A DNA stretch of 64,000 nt. Origin: Desulfuromonadales bacterium. Its GTDB lineage: Bacteria; Desulfobacterota; Desulfuromonadia; Desulfuromonadales; BM103. The stretch covers positions 1 through 64,000 of the forward strand of contig JAMONP010000071.1 in NCBI GenBank assembly GCA_027065695.1, read 5' to 3'. Each line of letters opens with the position of its first letter. The stretch's first letter is position 1. Below the pieces are notes generated by a model, which saw nothing but the letters and a program-made list of their open reading frames with translations, searched no databases and was not told the origin of the DNA. The position numbers were made by a program, and so were the translations under genes. This document shows positions 55,209 through 64,000 of the stretch, one piece after another.

Positions 55209-55283
55209 GCGGGACTAACTCAGTGGTAGAGTGCGACCTTGCCAAGGTCGAAGTCGCGAGTTCGAATCTCGTGTCCCGCTCCA
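55209..55283 (+). tRNA. tRNA-Gly (anticodon GCC)
   Basis: A complete cloverleaf of 75 nt with encoded CCA. The acceptor stem pairs GCGGGAC with GTCCCGC, the D arm is CTCAGTGGTAGAG, the anticodon arm CGACC-TTGCCAA-GGTCG places GCC at 55241-55243, and the T arm is GCGAGTTCGAATCTCGT. It has its own promoter and terminator. Confidence 0.97.
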
Positions 55284-55291
55284 AAGATAAT

Positions 55292-55325
55292 GCCCCATGG
55301 CTTAATTGCTGTGGGGCTTTTTTTT
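55292..55325 (+). terminator. Intrinsic terminator after tRNA-Gly
   Basis: GCCCCA pairs with TGGGGC around a 14-nt loop and is followed by TTTTTTTT. Confidence 0.9.
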
Positions 55326-55488
55326 GAGAAGCTGCAAATATGCAGGCTTCGCAATGATTGGACAATTCCCATTTTACAGTTGACACTCGACATCCTCAGA
55401 CGTTACAAAAACAGATCATTTGTCTATATTATATTTCGCTGAATGTTACATCTTATTATCGGGTTATTTCTTTGTAAGGAGGAGAGTG

Positions 55489-56286
55489 ATGTTGAAAAAG
55501 CTGTTGGTTACAACTGTTATTATGGTGTTCGTTGCTTGTCTGGGTTCAGTCGCCTTGGCTGAGCAAGCTGTATTGTCTGTTTCTGATTGTGTTAAGTGCC
55601 ACAATGAGCAACCTGCACAGATTGCCGCAAATGGTGCGTCTCATAAAACAGAAATCGATTGTCAGGAATGCCATGAAGGGCATCGTCCTAGTGTCGAAAA
55701 CAACATCCCTAACTGTAACGACTGTCATGAGGGTAGTAAGCACTACGAAGTTGAAGTAGAGTGTCTTAGTTGCCACAACCCGCATCAACCTTTAAATGTC
55801 CGTCTCGAAGGTGAACAGAAGGCAGTTTGTGTCTCTTGCCACCAAGGCCCCAATAAACAGATGATCGCTAATCCAAGCAAGCACGCAACCTTTGCTTGTA
55901 ACTTATGCCATGCTGATACCCACGGTAACATTCCCGAATGCACTGATTGTCATGAGCCGCATTCTGAGTCGATGACCCAGGCAAATTGTGCAACTTGTCA
56001 CCAGGCACATAAGCCTCTGGACCTGACTTATCCGGCCAACACCGCCTCCCAGCTTTGTGCTGCTTGCCACGATTCGGTCTTTGCAACACTGTCTGTAAGC
56101 AAGGCTAAGCATAGCCAGATTGCCTGTGCAACCTGTCATACCACAAAGCACAAGACTGTGCCTGAATGTAGTGACTGCCATGGTAAACCGCATGCTGAGA
56201 GTATGCATGAGCGCTTCCCGAAATGTGGTCAGTGCCATAATGTCGCGCATGATCTGAACAACTGGCCAGATAAGAAAAAGAAATAA
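55489..56286 (+). CDS. Dodecaheme c-type cytochrome (12 CXXCH)
   Basis: A 265-residue exported multiheme cytochrome. The ATG at 55489 follows AAGGAGGA and gives a signal peptide (KKLLVTTVIMVFVACLGSVA, cleaved at LAE). The mature chain has 12 CXXCH sites: CVKCH, CQECH, CNDCH, CLSCH, CVSCH, CNLCH, CTDCH, CATCH, CAACH, CATCH, CSDCH, CGQCH. Many extra His residues between them suit bis-His ligation, as in c3/c7-type and doubled-CXXCH families. No lipobox or beta barrel is present, so it is probably periplasmic. It and its 12-heme neighbour (11 bp apart) likely form a pair for moving electrons between inner and outer membranes. Exact partner unknown. Confidence 0.92.
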   Translation: MLKKLLVTTVIMVFVACLGSVALAEQAVLSVSDCVKCHNEQPAQIAANGASHKTEIDCQECHEGHRPSVENNIPNCNDCHEGSKHYEVEVECLSCHNPHQPLNVRLEGEQKAVCVSCHQGPNKQMIANPSKHATFACNLCHADTHGNIPECTDCHEPHSESMTQANCATCHQAHKPLDLTYPANTASQLCAACHDSVFATLSVSKAKHSQIACATCHTTKHKTVPECSDCHGKPHAESMHERFPKCGQCHNVAHDLNNWPDKKKK

Positions 56287-56297
56287 GAAGGTAATTT

Positions 56298-57155
56298 ATG
56301 GTTAACTATCGAATCATTCTTACCGTTTGTGCGTTGGTTTTTGTTGCAACCCTGGCGGGGTTCTTCCTGCCAGGGGATGCCTCTGCCGTAGAGCGTAAAT
56401 TGCCACAGGTAGACACATCCCTTTATGCAGAGATGCCAATTCCGCTGCAACCGGCTGAGTGTGGCCAGTGTCACGGTGGTCAGTTCTTAGGTCTGCGAGA
56501 CTCAGGTGGCAAGCATCGTTTTGCCTGTCAGGAATGTCATCAGGTTTTTCATGCGTACAACCCCAGGAAAAACAATTATGACGAGTTGATGCCTCTCTGC
56601 AGCACCTGCCATGGTCAGCAACATGGGGCTAAAAAGATTGACTGTCTTAATTGTCATCAGAACCCGCATACACCACTACAGATCCCGGCAATGGATCGTC
56701 TTGCCAAGGCTTGCGCCGATTGTCATACTGCTCCGGCAAAGGAACTAAAGAAATTTCCCAGCGCCCATACGGAGCAAGGTTGCCAGACTTGTCATCATGA
56801 CAAACATGGCTACATTCCTGACTGTGCAGAATGTCACGATGGCCATTACGACGATCAGCCTGTTCAGGATTGTATGAGTTGCCATACGCGGGTACACGCA
56901 CCCCTGCAAATTGGTTTTCCTCGTGATGCCAATGTTAAGACCTGTAGTGGCTGTCACGATAATGTTTATGGCAAGTGGCAGAGGACACCGAGCAAACATG
57001 GGCAGGTTTCATGTGTTACGTGTCATCAAGCACATGGCAAGATCCCCGATTGTACAGAGTGCCATGGCGTGCCTCATAACAAAAAGCAGATGGAGTTATT
57101 CCCTAAATGTTTGACTTGCCACATTGATGTGCATGATCTGCCGATAAAGAATTAA
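56298..57155 (+). CDS. Dodecaheme c-type cytochrome, paralogue of the preceding one
   Basis: A 285-residue exported cytochrome with a signal or anchor segment (IILTVCALVFVATLAGFFLP, followed by GDASA). It also has 12 CXXCH sites: CGQCH, CQECH, CSTCH, CLNCH, CADCH, CQTCH, CAECH, CMSCH, CSGCH, CVTCH, CTECH, CLTCH. Both proteins share features such as IPDCxxCH/IPxCxxCH and FPKCxxCH-VHDL or AHDL at the C-terminus, which suggests duplication. The start GTAATTTATG has a modest ribosome site. A strong terminator follows. It is likely part of a periplasmic electron conduit. Confidence 0.92.
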   Translation: MVNYRIILTVCALVFVATLAGFFLPGDASAVERKLPQVDTSLYAEMPIPLQPAECGQCHGGQFLGLRDSGGKHRFACQECHQVFHAYNPRKNNYDELMPLCSTCHGQQHGAKKIDCLNCHQNPHTPLQIPAMDRLAKACADCHTAPAKELKKFPSAHTEQGCQTCHHDKHGYIPDCAECHDGHYDDQPVQDCMSCHTRVHAPLQIGFPRDANVKTCSGCHDNVYGKWQRTPSKHGQVSCVTCHQAHGKIPDCTECHGVPHNKKQMELFPKCLTCHIDVHDLPIKN

Positions 57156-57182: not shown

Positions 57183-57216
57183 AGGGGTTGGCCTGACCGG
57201 GCCAACCCCTCTTTAA
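57183..57216 (+). terminator. Intrinsic terminator after the cytochrome pair
   Basis: AGGGGTTGGCC pairs with GGCCAACCCCT around a short loop, followed by CTTTAATT. Confidence 0.85.
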
Positions 57217-57321: not shown

Positions 57322-57395
57322 GGCCCCGTCGCCAAGTGGTAAGGCAGAGGTCTGCAAAATCTCCATCACCAGTTCGAATCTGGTCGGGGCCTCCA
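57322..57395 (+). tRNA. tRNA-Cys (anticodon GCA)
   Basis: A complete 74-nt cloverleaf with encoded CCA. The acceptor stem pairs GGCCCCG with CGGGGCC. The D arm is GCCAAGTGGTAAGGC, the anticodon arm GAGGT-CTGCAAA-ATCTC has GCA at 57354-57356, and the T arm is CCAGTTCGAATCTGG. Confidence 0.97.
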
Positions 57396-57707: not shown

Positions 57708-58373
57708 ATGAATAAAGATACTCGAATATCGACAAAGGCCCTATACCAGGAAGTTGCTGCACGTCTAAGTGAAAGAATTTACTCTCAGGACTTAAAACCT
57801 GGCGATGCAATAGATGAGCAGGCTTTAGCTGAAGAGTACGGGATCAGTCGCACGCCTATGCGAGAAGCCCTCAAAGTTCTTCATTCTGAGGGTCTTGTCG
57901 TTTTGGAACCCCGCCGAGGATGTTTCGTCACAGAGCTTAGTGGGCAGGATATCGACGAGCTTTTCCCGTTGATGGCTTTGCTTGAGGGGCGTTGTGCCTA
58001 TGAAGCAGTAAAAAAAGCCAAACCTGCTGATATAAAACGGATTGAAGAGTTACATAACAAGTTAGAAAAGTATGCGGCCGCGAATAATAGGGAAATGTAC
58101 TTTGAACAAAACTGTATATTCCATGAACTCGTACAAAAGTTGGCTGATAACAACTGGTTAAAGCGAACAACAAGCGATCTGCGCAAGTTTCTAAAGTTAA
58201 TGCGGGGACGACAGCTTCAGCTTGAAGGACGGCTTCAGGCTTCATTAGCAGAGCACCGGATGCTTCTGGCAGCCTTCCAGAACGGTAATCCGTCTGCTGC
58301 CGAAAAAATCATGCATGATCATTTGATAAGCCAATGGGAAGCTTTGCGCAAATACGATGCGCTTGCAGAATAA
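57708..58373 (+). CDS. GntR-family transcriptional regulator, FCD (FadR) subfamily
   Basis: A 221-residue regulator. The N-terminal winged helix reads RLSERIYSQDLKPGDAIDEQ, LAEEYGISRTPMREALKVLH and EGLVVLEPRRGCFV. The C-terminal FCD effector domain (about 80-215) is all-helical, with the metal/ligand His residues in FHELVQKLADNNWL and AEHRMLLAAFQNG. Such regulators usually respond to carboxylates or amino-acid-derived acids. It lies directly upstream of the ABC transporter genes on the same strand and is the likely local regulator. Confidence 0.9.
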   Translation: MNKDTRISTKALYQEVAARLSERIYSQDLKPGDAIDEQALAEEYGISRTPMREALKVLHSEGLVVLEPRRGCFVTELSGQDIDELFPLMALLEGRCAYEAVKKAKPADIKRIEELHNKLEKYAAANNREMYFEQNCIFHELVQKLADNNWLKRTTSDLRKFLKLMRGRQLQLEGRLQASLAEHRMLLAAFQNGNPSAAEKIMHDHLISQWEALRKYDALAE

Positions 58374-58526
58374 CCGTTTATTGGGATTATGAAGAAAAGT
58401 GCCGTCGGCGCAATTCCCGCAAAATCAAACGGCTGTAGATTTTCAGAAACGACGTAATAGGGCGTCAAGTGAAAGGTGCAGGTGAATGCTTCGCCAGTCA
58501 TACAACCAACCACGGAGGAAACAGTG

Positions 58527-59696
58527 ATGCAAAAGACATTTCGGATCTTAACTTTCCTGGTCATGGTCTGCCTTGTTGGCAGTCTTCTGACCACCGCTGC
58601 GCTGGCTAAAGAAAAGGTCAAAGTGGCGTTCATTGGCCCATTGACTGGCGGAGTCTCCGCCAACGGCATAGGCGGTCGTAACTCGGCCCAGTTGGCTGTA
58701 AACCTTCGCAACGCAGACCCCAGTGCTAAATACGAATATGAGATGATATCTTTGGATGACGAATGTAAGCCGAACATTGGTGTGCAAGTGGCGACGAAAG
58801 CGGCGGCTGACAAGCATGTGATTGCTGCAGCAACCCACTATTGTTCTGCCGTCGCGATGGGGGCTGTGGGCACTTACAATAAATTTGGCTTGCCGGTAAT
58901 TGTATGGGGTGCAGTGTTGCCAGATGTTACTTACGGCAATGATTACAAAGAAGTGCACCGGGTTAACGGTACCATGATCAACCAAAACCAGGTGGCCGCT
59001 AAATTCATGCGTGATATGGGCTACAAAACCTGGGTAATAATCCATGACACCACAGATTACGGCAAAGGACACAACACCTACTTCACCAAGGAACTTGAGA
59101 AAGTTGGCGGTAAAATTCTGGGTCGGTTTGGCGTGACTGCCGATCAACAGGACTTCACAGCCGAGTTGACCAAGGTCAAGCAACTCAACCCCGACGTTGT
59201 CTATTTTGGGGGCCTGACAAACATTGGTGTGCGAATTCGTTTGCAAATGGAAAAGTTAGGTGTTGATGCTCAATTCCAAGGCACCTCTGGGATAAAATCT
59301 GATGCCTTTCTCAATACCTTGGGGCCGTTATCAGAGGGTGCACTGTCGTTCCAGGAAGGGGCTCCAATCGACAAACTTCCAGGCGGCAAATACTTTACCG
59401 AACAATATGATAAGGCAGGCTTTGAGCGCGGACACGAAGCCTACGGTCCATTCGCCTTCGCGGCCATGAATCTGATACTTGACACAATTGAGGATGTTGG
59501 CCCCAACCGCAAGAAAGTACGTAAGTCTTTGAACAAGGTTAATGGTTATGAGTCTATCGTGGGCGAGATTTCCTTCGATGACCACGGTCAGAATAAGGTT
59601 GCGGCAATTACTAAATATGTTGGCCAAGATGGTAAATGGGTGGTTTGGGAAGACAGCGAATATGGCAATGGCAAGCGTAAGCTGAAAAAACTATAA
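58527..59696 (+). CDS. Branched-chain-amino-acid-type ABC transporter, substrate-binding protein
   Basis: A periplasmic type I solute-binding protein of 389 residues. The ATG at 58527 follows GGAGGAAA and gives a signal peptide (TFRILTFLVMVCLVGSLLTT, cleaved near ALA). Mature motifs are KVKVAFIGPLTGGVSANGIG, then DDECKPNIGVQVATKAAADK and IHDTTDYGKGHNTYFTKELE, as in LivJ/LivK-type receptors. Ligand may be a branched-chain amino acid, another amino acid or a small amide. A strong terminator follows it, so it is likely made in excess over the membrane parts. Confidence 0.9.
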   Translation: MQKTFRILTFLVMVCLVGSLLTTAALAKEKVKVAFIGPLTGGVSANGIGGRNSAQLAVNLRNADPSAKYEYEMISLDDECKPNIGVQVATKAAADKHVIAAATHYCSAVAMGAVGTYNKFGLPVIVWGAVLPDVTYGNDYKEVHRVNGTMINQNQVAAKFMRDMGYKTWVIIHDTTDYGKGHNTYFTKELEKVGGKILGRFGVTADQQDFTAELTKVKQLNPDVVYFGGLTNIGVRIRLQMEKLGVDAQFQGTSGIKSDAFLNTLGPLSEGALSFQEGAPIDKLPGGKYFTEQYDKAGFERGHEAYGPFAFAAMNLILDTIEDVGPNRKKVRKSLNKVNGYESIVGEISFDDHGQNKVAAITKYVGQDGKWVVWEDSEYGNGKRKLKKL

Positions 59697-59714
59697 CATT
59701 ATTTAGATGACTAT

Positions 59715-59757
59715 CCGGGGCAGTCGGTAAAGGTTGCTGTCTGCCCCGGTTTTTTGT
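59715..59757 (+). terminator. Strong intrinsic terminator between binding protein and permease genes
   Basis: CCGGGGCAG pairs with CTGCCCCGG around a 17-nt loop, followed by TTTTTTG. Partial readthrough would feed the downstream permease and ATPase genes. Confidence 0.9.
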
Positions 59758-59789
59758 CAAAATTAGAGTGCATAACAGGAGATGGCCTG

Positions 59790-60710
59790 ATGGATATCGG
59801 GTTTTTAGGTCAATATGTGGTCAACGGATTAATGCTCGGTATGATGTACAGCCTTGTTGCCGTAGGGTTCACGCTTTTCTTTGGTGTGCTCGACATTATC
59901 AAGTTTTCGCACGGGGATGTTCTCATGGTCGGAGCTTTTGCCGGTTTGACGACTTTTTTTGGTCTTGAGGCAATAGGCATTGAATCGGCTTGGATCCAAC
60001 TTGTTACCATTGTAGTTGTTTCCTGTGTACTGACGGGCATACTTGGTTCGATGATTGGTAAATACCTGGTTCTGCCGCTCAAGTCGGCACCTGCTCTTAA
60101 CACTCTACTGATTACCTTGATGGCGGGGACCGTGTTGCGTGAATGTATTCGTCTATTCTTCCCTGATGGATCTAATCCCAAACCGTTTCCATCACTGTTG
60201 CCGTCTGAATCCTATTCATGGGGGAATTTCACCCTTCGTCTGGACAGCCTGATGCTATTGATCTTTGGCACTCTTGTTATTGTTGCTATCAGCTTGTTAA
60301 TCAACAAAACAAAGTTGGGTCTAGCTATCCGCGCGGTTGCTCAGGATGGGGAGACTGCGAAGATTATGGGAATTAATTTCACGTTGGTGGTTATTGTCAC
60401 TTTTGCCATTGGCTCTGGTGTGGCTGCTATTGCCGGTATAATGAACGGCCTTTACTACAACGAGATTAATTTTGATATGGGGCTACTGCTTGGCGTTATA
60501 GGATTTAGCGCCGCTATCGTAGGGGGCCTTGGTAACATCTATGGAGCGATACTTGGCGGGTTTCTATTCGCCGGATTGCAAACCTTTGGCGCCGTAGCGC
60601 TTCCCTTTGCCAGTGCCTATAAGGATGTATTTGCCTTTGCTGTGATCATCATGATCATGGCATGGCGTCCGACAGGTTTGATTGCTGAACGAACAAGCGA
60701 AAGGGTTTAA
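59790..60710 (+). CDS. livH: ABC transporter permease LivH
   Basis: One of two inner-membrane subunits. The ATG at 59790 follows CAGGAGATGG; the frame extends upstream to 59754 but runs through the previous terminator region. The 306-residue protein has about eight membrane helices and the family motifs GQYVVNGLMLGMMYSLVAVG, FGVLDIIKFSHGDVLMVGA and AIRAVAQDGETAKIMGI (the EAA-like loop contacting the ATPases). The symbol reflects the family; the transported compound is not proven. Confidence 0.9.
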   Translation: MDIGFLGQYVVNGLMLGMMYSLVAVGFTLFFGVLDIIKFSHGDVLMVGAFAGLTTFFGLEAIGIESAWIQLVTIVVVSCVLTGILGSMIGKYLVLPLKSAPALNTLLITLMAGTVLRECIRLFFPDGSNPKPFPSLLPSESYSWGNFTLRLDSLMLLIFGTLVIVAISLLINKTKLGLAIRAVAQDGETAKIMGINFTLVVIVTFAIGSGVAAIAGIMNGLYYNEINFDMGLLLGVIGFSAAIVGGLGNIYGAILGGFLFAGLQTFGAVALPFASAYKDVFAFAVIIMIMAWRPTGLIAERTSERV

Positions 60711-60715
60711 CTAGT

Positions 60716-61879
60716 ATGTCCAACAAGATAGCCAGTCCTTCTCTTCCGATTAGTCTTGCCGTGATAGCCCTTGGAACAGCATTTGCCATCTTGTTCCTTG
60801 GGGCTGAAAACGAATACCTCATCGGCAGTCTTTTGGTCTTTGTCACACTTGCTGTTGTCGCGTCTTCAAAATTTAACATCCTGAATCGTATGTACGCAAC
60901 TTTTGCCGTGCATGAGGTTCTTATGCAGGCTGCTATTGTGGTTGCTACATTGCTTTTGGTTGCATGGTTCTATGACGATCATTTTTCGCTACTCATGATA
61001 ACGGCTGCAATGGTATATGCGATTGCGGCGATCGGCCTGAACATTCAGTTTGGTTATGCTGGTGTCTTAAATTTTGCGGGAGCGGCTTTTTTGGGGATTG
61101 GTTGCTACACGTCAGCAGTTCTGGGCCAATATACCAATCTGCCATCAATGTTGATTCTATGCTTGGGTGGCCTTGTTGCGGCTGTTATAGGCACAATCCT
61201 GATATTGCCGGTTTTGCGCACGAGCGGTCATTACGCTGCATTGGTGACCATTGCCTTCAGCATTCTTTTTAAGACATTTCTCGAAGTCAACGATGTCTTG
61301 GGTGGGCCACAGGGGCTTAACGTCAAGCCCACGGTCTTATTTGGCTGGAACTTCAATACCAACATTGAAATACGAGATGAATTCGAGGCATCTTTCTATC
61401 TGTGCTACGCATTGCTGGCTTTATTCCTTCTGGCTCTGGCGTTTATCTTTACTCGCCGATTGGAACGATCGTGGATTGGGCTCAGCATGGATTCAATCCG
61501 GCTCGACGAAACTGCGTCGGCATGTTACGGCTTGAACATAGCCCTGTGGAAGAGTGTCGCTTTCACCTTCGGTAACTTTCTGATTGGCGTAGCCGGTGCA
61601 ATGTACGGTCAGATGCTTGGCTACGTCGCGCCATCCAATTTCACTTTTGGCGACTCTTTGATCCTGGTGTCAATAGTCCTACTGGGCGGTATTGGAAATC
61701 CATGGGGCGTAATTACCGCTGCATCGATTGTCATACTTCTTCCCGAGAAATTTCAAATAATCCAGGAGTACCGGTTTCTTCTATACGGTATTGTCGTTAT
61801 TTTCATCTTGTTGTACCGGCCAAAGGGATTATTGCCGCGTCAACTCAGGAACTATCTGCCTGGAGGGATGAAGGCATGA
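60716..61879 (+). CDS. livM: ABC transporter permease LivM
   Basis: The second permease subunit, 387 residues with about ten membrane helices. GLNIQFGYAGVLNFAGAAFL and LERSWIGLSMDSIRLDETAS (coupling loop) and LGGIGNPWGV are the family signatures. The N-terminal 100 residues, with extra helices, are longer than in short LivM proteins but common in proteobacteria. The 3' end overlaps livG by four bases (ATGA). Confidence 0.9.
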   Translation: MSNKIASPSLPISLAVIALGTAFAILFLGAENEYLIGSLLVFVTLAVVASSKFNILNRMYATFAVHEVLMQAAIVVATLLLVAWFYDDHFSLLMITAAMVYAIAAIGLNIQFGYAGVLNFAGAAFLGIGCYTSAVLGQYTNLPSMLILCLGGLVAAVIGTILILPVLRTSGHYAALVTIAFSILFKTFLEVNDVLGGPQGLNVKPTVLFGWNFNTNIEIRDEFEASFYLCYALLALFLLALAFIFTRRLERSWIGLSMDSIRLDETASACYGLNIALWKSVAFTFGNFLIGVAGAMYGQMLGYVAPSNFTFGDSLILVSIVLLGGIGNPWGVITAASIVILLPEKFQIIQEYRFLLYGIVVIFILLYRPKGLLPRQLRNYLPGGMKA

Positions 61880-62661
61880 ATCGCAGCAGTGATCTGCTTT
61901 TAGATTGCCAGGGATTAACCCGGCATTTTGGTGGATTGGTCGCACTGGATGGACTTGATCTGCAAGTCAGAGAAGGTGAGATCTTGGGTTTGATAGGGCC
62001 CAATGGTTCCGGCAAGACCACCATGTTTAATGTGGTCACGGGAATTTATGGTGCCCACGGTGGTCGTGTGGAATTTGATGGTAATGATCTTACCAACGCC
62101 ACTGCACAACAGGTCTATCGCTCAGGTATCGTGCGAACTTTTCAACGTTCGCGTATGTGTCTGGAACTCTCGGTATTTGACAACATCATGGTTGGCAATC
62201 ATCGACGGTTGAACCATGGGCTTTGGTTTAATCTGTTCAAACGCGGGGCGTTCGCTGATCAGTACAAGAAAAATTATGCTGAAGCTCACGAATTAATCGA
62301 GATTTTCGATCCGCCTTTAGCTGAACGGCTGGATTTTCCTGTCGATACATTTCCTATGATCGATCGGCGGCGCATTGAGATCTGTCGTGCGTTGATCAGT
62401 CACCCGAAGTTGTTGTTACTCGACGAACCGTCAGCGGGTATGACGCACGATGAAACAATGCAGCTGATGGATGATATCCTGACTGTACGTAAACGTCTTT
62501 CAGGGTTAACCATCATTATTATTGAGCACGAAATGGGGGTCATTGAGCGAATTACTGATCATTGTGTCGTGCTGAATTTCGGTCGTAAAATATGTGAAGG
62601 GACATTTAAAAAAGTGTCCACCGATTCGAACGTACAGGAAGCATATCTGGGAGTAGAGTGA
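61876..62661 (+). CDS. livG: ABC transporter ATPase LivG
   Basis: One of two ATP-binding subunits. The ATG at 61876 is used; the frame extending upstream is antisense-free livM overlap and not expected to be translated. Motifs: Walker A GPNGSGKTT (about 42-50), Q-loop RTFQRSRM, a degenerate signature region MIDRRRIEICRAL, Walker B LLLLDEPSAGM, and the switch His in IIEHEMGVI. Length is 261 residues. The usual LSGGQ is replaced by a FPMIDRRR-type sequence, a variant to note. Confidence 0.9.
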   Translation: MNRSSDLLLDCQGLTRHFGGLVALDGLDLQVREGEILGLIGPNGSGKTTMFNVVTGIYGAHGGRVEFDGNDLTNATAQQVYRSGIVRTFQRSRMCLELSVFDNIMVGNHRRLNHGLWFNLFKRGAFADQYKKNYAEAHELIEIFDPPLAERLDFPVDTFPMIDRRRIEICRALISHPKLLLLDEPSAGMTHDETMQLMDDILTVRKRLSGLTIIIIEHEMGVIERITDHCVVLNFGRKICEGTFKKVSTDSNVQEAYLGVE

Positions 62662-62662
62662 C

Positions 62663-63379
62663 ATGGCAATAGATGGACAGTTGGAAGTCCGTGATATATA
62701 TACGGCATATGACAAGGCCGATGTTCTGGAAGGCATTAGTTTGAATGTCGTACCAGGCAAGATCACCTGCCTGCTTGGTTCCAACGGTGCGGGGAAGAGC
62801 ACGATTATCCGTTCCATCCTCGGGCTGACTCCTCCGCGTGCAGGTTCGATTTCTTTTGGGGATAAAGATTTGACCGGCCTTGCTACGCACAAGATCATCG
62901 CGACAGGGATAGCATGCATACCTGAAGGACGGAAGTTGTTCCCAAAGTTGAGTGTTGAGGAGAACCTCCATCTGGGAGCCTATCAAGAAACCTCAAAAGA
63001 TGTGGTGCGCCAGCGTATCGAACAAGTTTTTGAGATTTTCCCGAGATTACATGACCGACGTCTCCAACTGGCGGGCACCATGTCTGGTGGAGAACAGGCG
63101 ATGGTGTCTATCGGCAGAGGACTGATGGGTGCTCCGAAACTCTTGCTTATAGATGAACCTTCGCTGGGATTGTCTCCGTTGTTTGTGAAGGAGACCTTCA
63201 AAATAATCAACAAGATTAACGAACAGGGCATTACAGTTTTTCTGGTCGAACAGAATGTGCATCAGACCCTTGCCATTGCGCATTATGGTTATGTCCTGTC
63301 CAAAGGTCAGGTTGTTGCCGAAGGCGAGTCGGCGGTCCTGGCCGAGAATTCCGAAGTGCGTGAAGCCTATTTCGGATGA
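62663..63379 (+). CDS. livF: ABC transporter ATPase LivF
   Basis: The second ATP-binding subunit, 238 residues. Walker A GSNGAGKST (about 38-46), CIPEGRKLFPKLSVEENL (LivF-specific stretch), signature MSGGEQAMVSIGRGLM, Walker B LLLIDEPSLGLSP and switch VEQNVHQTL. It starts 1 bp after the livG stop, so expression is coupled. Confidence 0.93.
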   Translation: MAIDGQLEVRDIYTAYDKADVLEGISLNVVPGKITCLLGSNGAGKSTIIRSILGLTPPRAGSISFGDKDLTGLATHKIIATGIACIPEGRKLFPKLSVEENLHLGAYQETSKDVVRQRIEQVFEIFPRLHDRRLQLAGTMSGGEQAMVSIGRGLMGAPKLLLIDEPSLGLSPLFVKETFKIINKINEQGITVFLVEQNVHQTLAIAHYGYVLSKGQVVAEGESAVLAENSEVREAYFG

Positions 63380-63411
63380 TATTGGTGAATCCTCCAGGAG
63401 GTTGAATCAGA

Positions 63412-64000
63412 ATGGACGCCATAACCCTGACTCAGGAACTAATTCGGATCCCGACGATCAACCCGCCAGGAAACGAAAGTGAATGTGTCGAACATTTGGC
63501 TTCGCTTCTGGAGAGTGCTGGTTTTGAAGTCTCGCGCCATGAGTTTGCGGACCGCCGTGTTTCATTGGTAGCCAGCTTGGGAACAGGGCACGGCAAGCCC
63601 ATTTGTTTCACTGGTCACGTTGATACTGTGCCGCTTGGCTTCCAGACTTGGTCGGTCGACCCATTTTCAGGGAGCATTGATGGTGAGCGGCTTTTCGGAC
63701 GTGGTTCCAGTGACATGAAAAGCGGTGTCGCCGCGTTCGTCGTTGCTGCGATTGAGATGGCTCCGGTTATCAGTAAAAGCAGCGGTGTAGTACTGATCAT
63801 CACTGCCGGTGAAGAAACTGGGTGTGAAGGCGCCATGCACCTGGCCTCTAAGGGTGGGACGTTAAAAGAAGCTGGAGCCATTATTGTGGCCGAACCTACT
63901 TCCAATTATCCGCTCGTTGGTCACAAGGGTGCCCTGTGGTTACGTGCTCGTATTGACGGAGTGACCGCTCATGGCTCCCAACCGGAACATGGTGAAAATG
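63412..64000 (+). CDS. M20-family metallopeptidase/deacylase (cut by window end)
   Basis: The frame opens at ATG 63412 after CAGGAGGTTGAATCAGA and is open to the last base, giving 196 residues with the C-terminus missing. It matches the ArgE/DapE/CPG2 group of zinc enzymes: first metal His and Asp in FTGHVDTVP, bridging Asp in GRGSSDMKSG, catalytic Glu-Glu in AGEETG, then VAEPTSNYPLVGHKGALW and the start of the dimerisation domain (AHGSQPEHG). It could hydrolyse a peptide or N-acyl amino acid imported by the preceding transporter. Which substrate cannot be told. Confidence 0.9.
   Translation, partial: MDAITLTQELIRIPTINPPGNESECVEHLASLLESAGFEVSRHEFADRRVSLVASLGTGHGKPICFTGHVDTVPLGFQTWSVDPFSGSIDGERLFGRGSSDMKSGVAAFVVAAIEMAPVISKSSGVVLIITAGEETGCEGAMHLASKGGTLKEAGAIIVAEPTSNYPLVGHKGALWLRARIDGVTAHGSQPEHGEN

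Follow-up and report, generated by a model that had tools for sequence, protein, structure and literature searches.

An unnamed, phylum-wide pair of dodecaheme cytochrome genes with a putatively ExtA-like second member

Results

Two dodecaheme cytochrome genes form an isolated unit between two tRNA genes

We analysed a 64-kb stretch of DNA, referred to throughout as the window, in which two tandem genes on the forward strand encode exported-type dodecaheme c-type cytochromes: gene 1 (P1; 55489..56286, 265 aa) and gene 2 (P2; 56298..57155, 285 aa). Both lie between the genes for tRNA-Gly(GCC) (55209..55283) and tRNA-Cys(GCA) (57322..57395), also on the forward strand and identified with ARAGORN. 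The open reading frames, the 12 CXXCH motifs in each protein and the ARAGORN calls bear out the coordinates and counts of a first-pass annotation of this DNA, which had described two related, tandem 12-heme cytochromes between these tRNA genes. P1 begins with ATG, preceded by AAGGAGG, and is separated from P2 by 11 bp. Terminator-like hairpins on the same strand, one 3' of tRNA-Gly (55292..55317) and one closing the P1-P2 unit (57183..57210), bracket P1-P2 as a two-gene unit; both are consensus matches only, and the four terminator-like sites found, compared with 2.3 expected, are not a significant excess. Of several candidates that a promoter scan gave in this region, the one at 55402-55430 scored 9/12; it carries no weight as proof.

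The heme pattern occurred 35 times in the DNA of the window, compared with 5.7 times expected from shuffles, and 24 of the 35 matches fell inside P1 and P2, in agreement with the 24 heme sites previously counted in the pair. When the residues of P1 or P2 were shuffled, a mean of 0.2 and a maximum of 3 heme sites were obtained, versus 12 in the real sequence. Other properties attributed to the proteins in the first-pass annotation were likewise observed: both have signal-peptide-like N-termini, as expected of exported proteins, and both share the C-terminal motif CHGxPH...FPKCxxCH...HDL. No porin, quinone-reactive gene or further cytochrome was found in the kilobases adjoining P1-P2 in the window, and the only conserved close partner of either gene there is the other. 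The region 3' of tRNA-Cys (57708-64000) holds a GntR-type regulator followed by branched-chain amino-acid ABC transporter-like genes; most sister genomes have different genes in this region.

P1 and P2 are each built from three tetraheme modules

In both proteins the spacing of the heme motifs repeats every four motifs (about 76 residues), and heme spacing together with module profiles divides each into three tetraheme modules. In P1, the module profiles place m1 (hemes 1-4) at 55588..55827, m2 (hemes 5-8) at 55828..56055 and m3 (hemes 9-12), a fixed C-terminal cap, at 56056..56283; the corresponding modules of P2 lie at 56460..56711, 56712..56942 and 56943..57152, all on the forward strand. 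This modular build had been overlooked in the first-pass annotation. The tetraheme segments matched one another across positions with HHalign probabilities of 98-99.6%. Because the best or equal-best match of each P1 segment was the segment at the same position in P2, we conclude that the triplication is older than the gene duplication.

Outside the CXXCH motifs, exactly 12 histidines were invariant in the alignment of the P1 family (n=70 sequences) and exactly 12 in that of the P2 family (n=42 sequences), and neither family had an invariant Met in its conservation list. These 12 extra invariant histidines per family lead us to predict bis-His ligation for all 24 hemes of P1 and P2. AlphaFold models of the two proteins had mean pLDDT values of 90.1 (P1) and 86.6 (P2). 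Foldseek, which is weak on folds this poor in secondary structure, gave neither model a significant match; VIA-align found weak structural matches only.

Assignment of P1 and P2 to a named family was rejected, since Pfam yielded generic cytochrome c3/c7 domains only (PF14537 and PF14522; 58.3/52.2 and 35.7/37.8 bits, versus Pfam gathering thresholds of 25/24.8) and NCBIfam nothing above a full-length cut-off. The 'nanowire' cytochromes of the GSU1996 type (GSU1996 and GSU0592/OmcQ) are similarly monomeric, exported 12-heme proteins with tandem repeats, and the P1 profile matched 3ov0, of the GSU1996 type, distantly (E 1.9e-12). However, GSU1996 consists of four triheme c7 domains, in each of which one heme is His-Met ligated (PMC10138318), whereas P1 and P2 have three tetraheme modules and 12 invariant distal histidines; because the module profiles are tetraheme and not triheme c7, and no Met is invariant, we rejected a GSU1996-type identity. 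Across six Geobacter genomes, GSU0592/OmcQ and GSU2935 are conserved as 12-heme families (Butler 2010, PMC2825233). Neither was accepted as the P1 orthologue: OmcQ has been grouped with GSU1996 (PMC10138318), the Geobacterales P1 loci that we read do not lie in a bc-complex cluster, and no GSU number could be linked to P1. As for DmsE/MtrA, a role as a periplasmic multiheme partner is plausible for P1 and P2 as well, but identity with this decaheme family was rejected, because the two proteins scored far under the TIGR03508 cut-off (38.6 and 41.8 bits versus 192.2), have 12 hemes and lack an adjacent MtrB-type barrel. The structure of P2 module 3 (residues 179-255, mature model) resembled that of MtrA weakly (Z 4.9, rmsd 3.0, 75 residues).

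The pair stems from an ancient duplication

P1 and P2 are 34-38% identical over essentially their whole length (BLASTP 34%, E 3e-54), with all 12 hemes co-linear. A tree built from 122 twelve-heme proteins by a quick method, with no bootstrap, placed P1-type (78) and P2-type (44) proteins on the two sides of one branch (SH-aLRT 100), and many of the same groups recurred in both halves, as expected if P1 and P2 were inherited together. At E 1e-20 or lower, a P1-type protein turned up in 168 of the 277 genomes covered for the class; in an even draw from the phylum, 48 of 395 genomes had one. Of the 39 loci with both genes, 37 had P1 ahead of P2 on one strand, usually with 1-120 bp between them. 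Most Geobacterales loci that we read had P1 alone; a P2 relative is encoded at a separate site of these genomes. From these sequence comparisons we conclude that the duplication is ancient and phylum-wide and not local. The 'duplicated periplasmic wire' suggested in the first-pass annotation therefore survives in part: the two proteins are paralogues and conserve the ligands for 24 predicted bis-His hemes, but the duplication is no local event.

Neighbouring genes differed among lineages. In other classes, the pair adjoins cytochromes of 5-7 hemes, NHL propellers, PPIase-type proteins, a 26-heme cytochrome or a sensor kinase. The sensor histidine kinase gene at L154:12334-14292 and similar genes at five further loci (L150, L151, L153, L155 and L157), grouped with it by membership of the same broad similarity cluster, lie directly 3' of the pair or of P1 in these classes.

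Conservation of multiheme cytochromes among metal-reducing bacteria is usually described as poor. By contrast, P1-P2 keeps its gene order, its 12+12 hemes and its 24 candidate distal ligands across the phylum, and it has apparent links to an extABC-like conduit.

P2 clades with cytochromes of extABC-like clusters

Among the conduit clusters tested in G. sulfurreducens, only deletion of extABCD gave an electrode growth defect (PMC6148476). ExtA is a periplasmic dodecaheme, ExtB an outer-membrane protein and ExtC a pentaheme lipoprotein, followed by a replaceable outer lipoprotein, and in some genomes extA lies apart from extBCD; the cut-off applied there was 40% or higher identity over 75% of GSU2645 (PMC6148476). 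In Geobacterales, we found a P2-clade cytochrome directly upstream of a gene for a ~430-aa heme-free protein in 10 of 10 loci, counting those in which the ~430-aa gene had 50% or higher identity to the query and the upstream position was covered. The next gene downstream of the ~430-aa gene usually encodes a ~156-aa pentaheme protein that carries a lipobox, and a variable cytochrome comes after it. The ext-linked Geobacterales P2 relatives carry 11 CXXCH motifs and one CX3CH, giving 12 sites. Although the ~430-aa protein matched no Pfam or NCBIfam family, we infer that it is an outer-membrane porin, and the agreement of gene order and heme counts with the published description suggests that the P2 clade includes ExtA (GSU2645). 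The first-pass annotation had noted that no quinone-reactive or porin partner is adjacent to the pair; this holds for the locus in the window but not for Geobacterales, where members of the P2 branch adjoin extABC-like genes.

The P2 of the window resembles ExtA in having 12 CXXCH motifs, an exported-type sequence and no lipid anchor, and Geobacterales members of its clade sit, like ExtA, directly before genes for an ExtB-like ~430-aa protein and a pentaheme lipoprotein. In contrast to ExtA, it is paired with P1 and has no ExtB- or ExtC-type neighbours, and the window's genome contains no match to the ExtB-like gene. Within the genus, two genomes had both P2 and an ExtB-like gene, four had P2 only, two the ExtB-like gene only and three neither. 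Because P2 and the ExtB-like gene are uncorrelated there, P2 is not an obligate ExtB partner in the genus. Most extBC-like loci of the window's order have no P2 neighbour. P1 would be the soluble paralogue that accompanies P2, and P1-P2 is an unnamed, phylum-wide two-gene unit whose second gene appears to be ExtA-like.

At least 15 of 44 P2 relatives, mostly outside the window's family, have a lipobox. Because it is present in so many relatives, P2 is probably membrane-tethered in many lineages; in the window's organism it is apparently not, as its signal-peptide-like N-terminus showed no lipobox by inspection. The P1 proteins of the genus have a Cys within the hydrophobic stretch, upstream of an ordinary cleavage site, and their lipidation is unlikely.

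A probable role in periplasmic electron relay

The reading that we favour, and consider likely, is that P1-P2 is a two-gene unit of long standing, passed on vertically, whose products are paralogous exported dodecahemes that probably form a periplasmic electron relay, with P2 being ExtA-like. P1 and P2 would be present in the periplasm as holo-cytochromes, where they would take up electrons from inner-membrane quinol-oxidising cytochromes, relay and store them, and pass them to outer-membrane conduits. Because no ExtB-like porin was found in the window's genome, the relay would need another conduit in this organism. One candidate is found on contig C85 (L167:6275-9531), where a DmsE-family cytochrome scoring above the cut-off adjoins an MtrB/PioB-like barrel with a further resemblance to the GSU2204 family of CXXCH-containing (seleno)proteins; this DmsE-type cytochrome and barrel are a possible outer-membrane conduit, which the relay could feed.

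Contig C52 of the same genome (L164:7030-15063) carries a cluster of genes for 4-, 8- and 9-heme cytochromes, which also includes an NHL-repeat protein and a ResB-like gene.

A second explanation is that the pair is mainly an electron store, a capacitor that would keep 24 electrons in the periplasm once acceptors are exhausted, with no specific outer-membrane partner. A storage function has been suggested for GSU1996 and other monomeric 12-heme cytochromes of the periplasm (PMC10138318), and it would be consistent with the isolation of P1-P2 in the window, with P2 not tracking the ExtB-like gene in the genus and with P1 standing alone in most Geobacterales loci read. However, the exact number of 12 hemes and the gene order are strictly conserved, suggesting a specific fit, and in several lineages members of the pair lie in conduit-like or other multiheme clusters. 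We therefore regard storage as the main function of the pair as unlikely.

P1-type modules recur in giant cytochromes

Within the order, several families have proteins of 20, 53, 57 and 65 hemes that are made up of P1-type modules; m1 and m2 alternate for the most part, and m3 always comes last. The 65-heme (L074:10117-14154), 57-heme (L076:10605-14183), 53-heme (L070:6494-9703) and 20-heme (L071:8084-9385) proteins are each followed by a P2-type gene, as were five of the six long proteins read (these four and that of L072); none was found beside the 20-heme protein of L069. A Sel1-repeat gene also follows most of the giants of L074, L076, L070 and L071. The giants of 53, 57 and 65 hemes thus share with P1 the m3 cap and a neighbouring P2-type gene; unlike them, P1 and P2 of the window have three modules only.

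Published giants of Desulfuromonadales have similar heme counts. DESUT3_5430 of D. versatilis has 53 hemes, with homologues of 55-77 hemes listed (PMC8465243), and DSOUD_0664 of D. soudanensis has 69 and is predicted to be extracellular (PMC4914508). The 53-heme count in L070 equals that of DESUT3_5430, and we predict that the 69 hemes of DSOUD_0664 would fit the same 4n+1 count. In a 2019 review, the role of giant cytochromes was called undetermined (PMC7096707).

One possible explanation, which we put forward as tentative, is that P1-P2 represents, in its smallest form, a single-chain wire whose length can be tuned. A start-extend-cap rule would operate in the P1 slot, with m1 and m2 repeated and m3 invariably last, giving 12, 20, 53, 57 or 65 hemes, and a constant 12-heme P2 would dock to the m3 cap. 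If so, one docking partner could serve wires of widely different length. The P1 modules give a simple modular rule for giant cytochromes, and P1 and P2 are small proteins suited to measuring the module interfaces of the giants and the docking of their partner.

The occurrence of these modules in relatives of 20-65 hemes, mostly beside P2, raises the possibility that the pair itself is, or belongs to, an extracellular wire, either an OmcS-type filament or a giant cytochrome of the same modules. The predicted extracellular location of the 69-heme D. soudanensis cytochrome (PMC4914508) points the same way, as does a weak OmcS match (E 4.8e-5) of one 5-heme neighbour of the pair in another class, but two other 5-heme neighbours tested had no such match, and no solved filament cytochrome matched either the P1 or the P2 profile at E 1e-6. 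Given also that P1 and P2 are short proteins with ordinary signal peptides, and that the lipobox of many P2 relatives suggests membrane tethering, we consider an extracellular wire highly improbable and retain the periplasmic relay as the preferred reading.

The locus is vertically inherited in the neighbourhood of the window

Both tRNA genes flank P1 in all 11 genus genomes examined (in one, split over two contigs) and flank the site in several other genera of the family, and the pgsA-like gene adjoining tRNA-Gly is likewise kept. Synteny with both tRNAs, named in the first-pass annotation as a counter-test to transfer, was thus observed throughout the genus and in part of the family, but it is not order-wide. 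Within the window both tRNA 3' ends are single-copy, with no duplicated ends or attachment repeats; contig C71 carries no integrase, and the five integrase matches of the genome are all on other contigs. The GC contents of the P1 and P2 genes (47.4% and 48.8%) are close to that of the window (48.9%), with GC3 about 1 sd low. Viral contigs and phage records gave no match to P1 or P2, and plasmids gave one weak match.

No empty tRNA site was found among the 11 genus genomes. Five of these are P1-only, and four of the five retain P2 fragments at the expected place (L060:9662-9858, L061:10590-10744, L062:5943-6065 and L159:3005-3248). The remnants are up to 89% identical to the P2 of a sister, and in L060 and L159 both ends of the gene survive, as an internal deletion would leave them; no remnants were found in L059, L161, L162, L063 or L065. 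Because P2 fragments remain in four P1-only genomes, we conclude that P2 was lost by deletion in these four and that the site was not previously empty. The acquisition by transfer raised in the first-pass annotation, that is, integration of P1-P2 at the tRNA genes, would suit an isolated cassette between two such genes and the patchy presence of P2 in the genus, but the conserved flanks, unique tRNA 3' ends, off-contig integrases, normal GC, scarcity of mobile-element matches and P2 deletions in at least four genomes speak against it and leave it very unlikely. Near the window, the pair has been inherited vertically; transfers between distant members of the phylum may have occurred.

In two genomes of the order, a trio of genes in the arrangement P1-P2-P1' (L055:8089-10825 and L056:5082-10064) lies near a tRNA-SeC gene.
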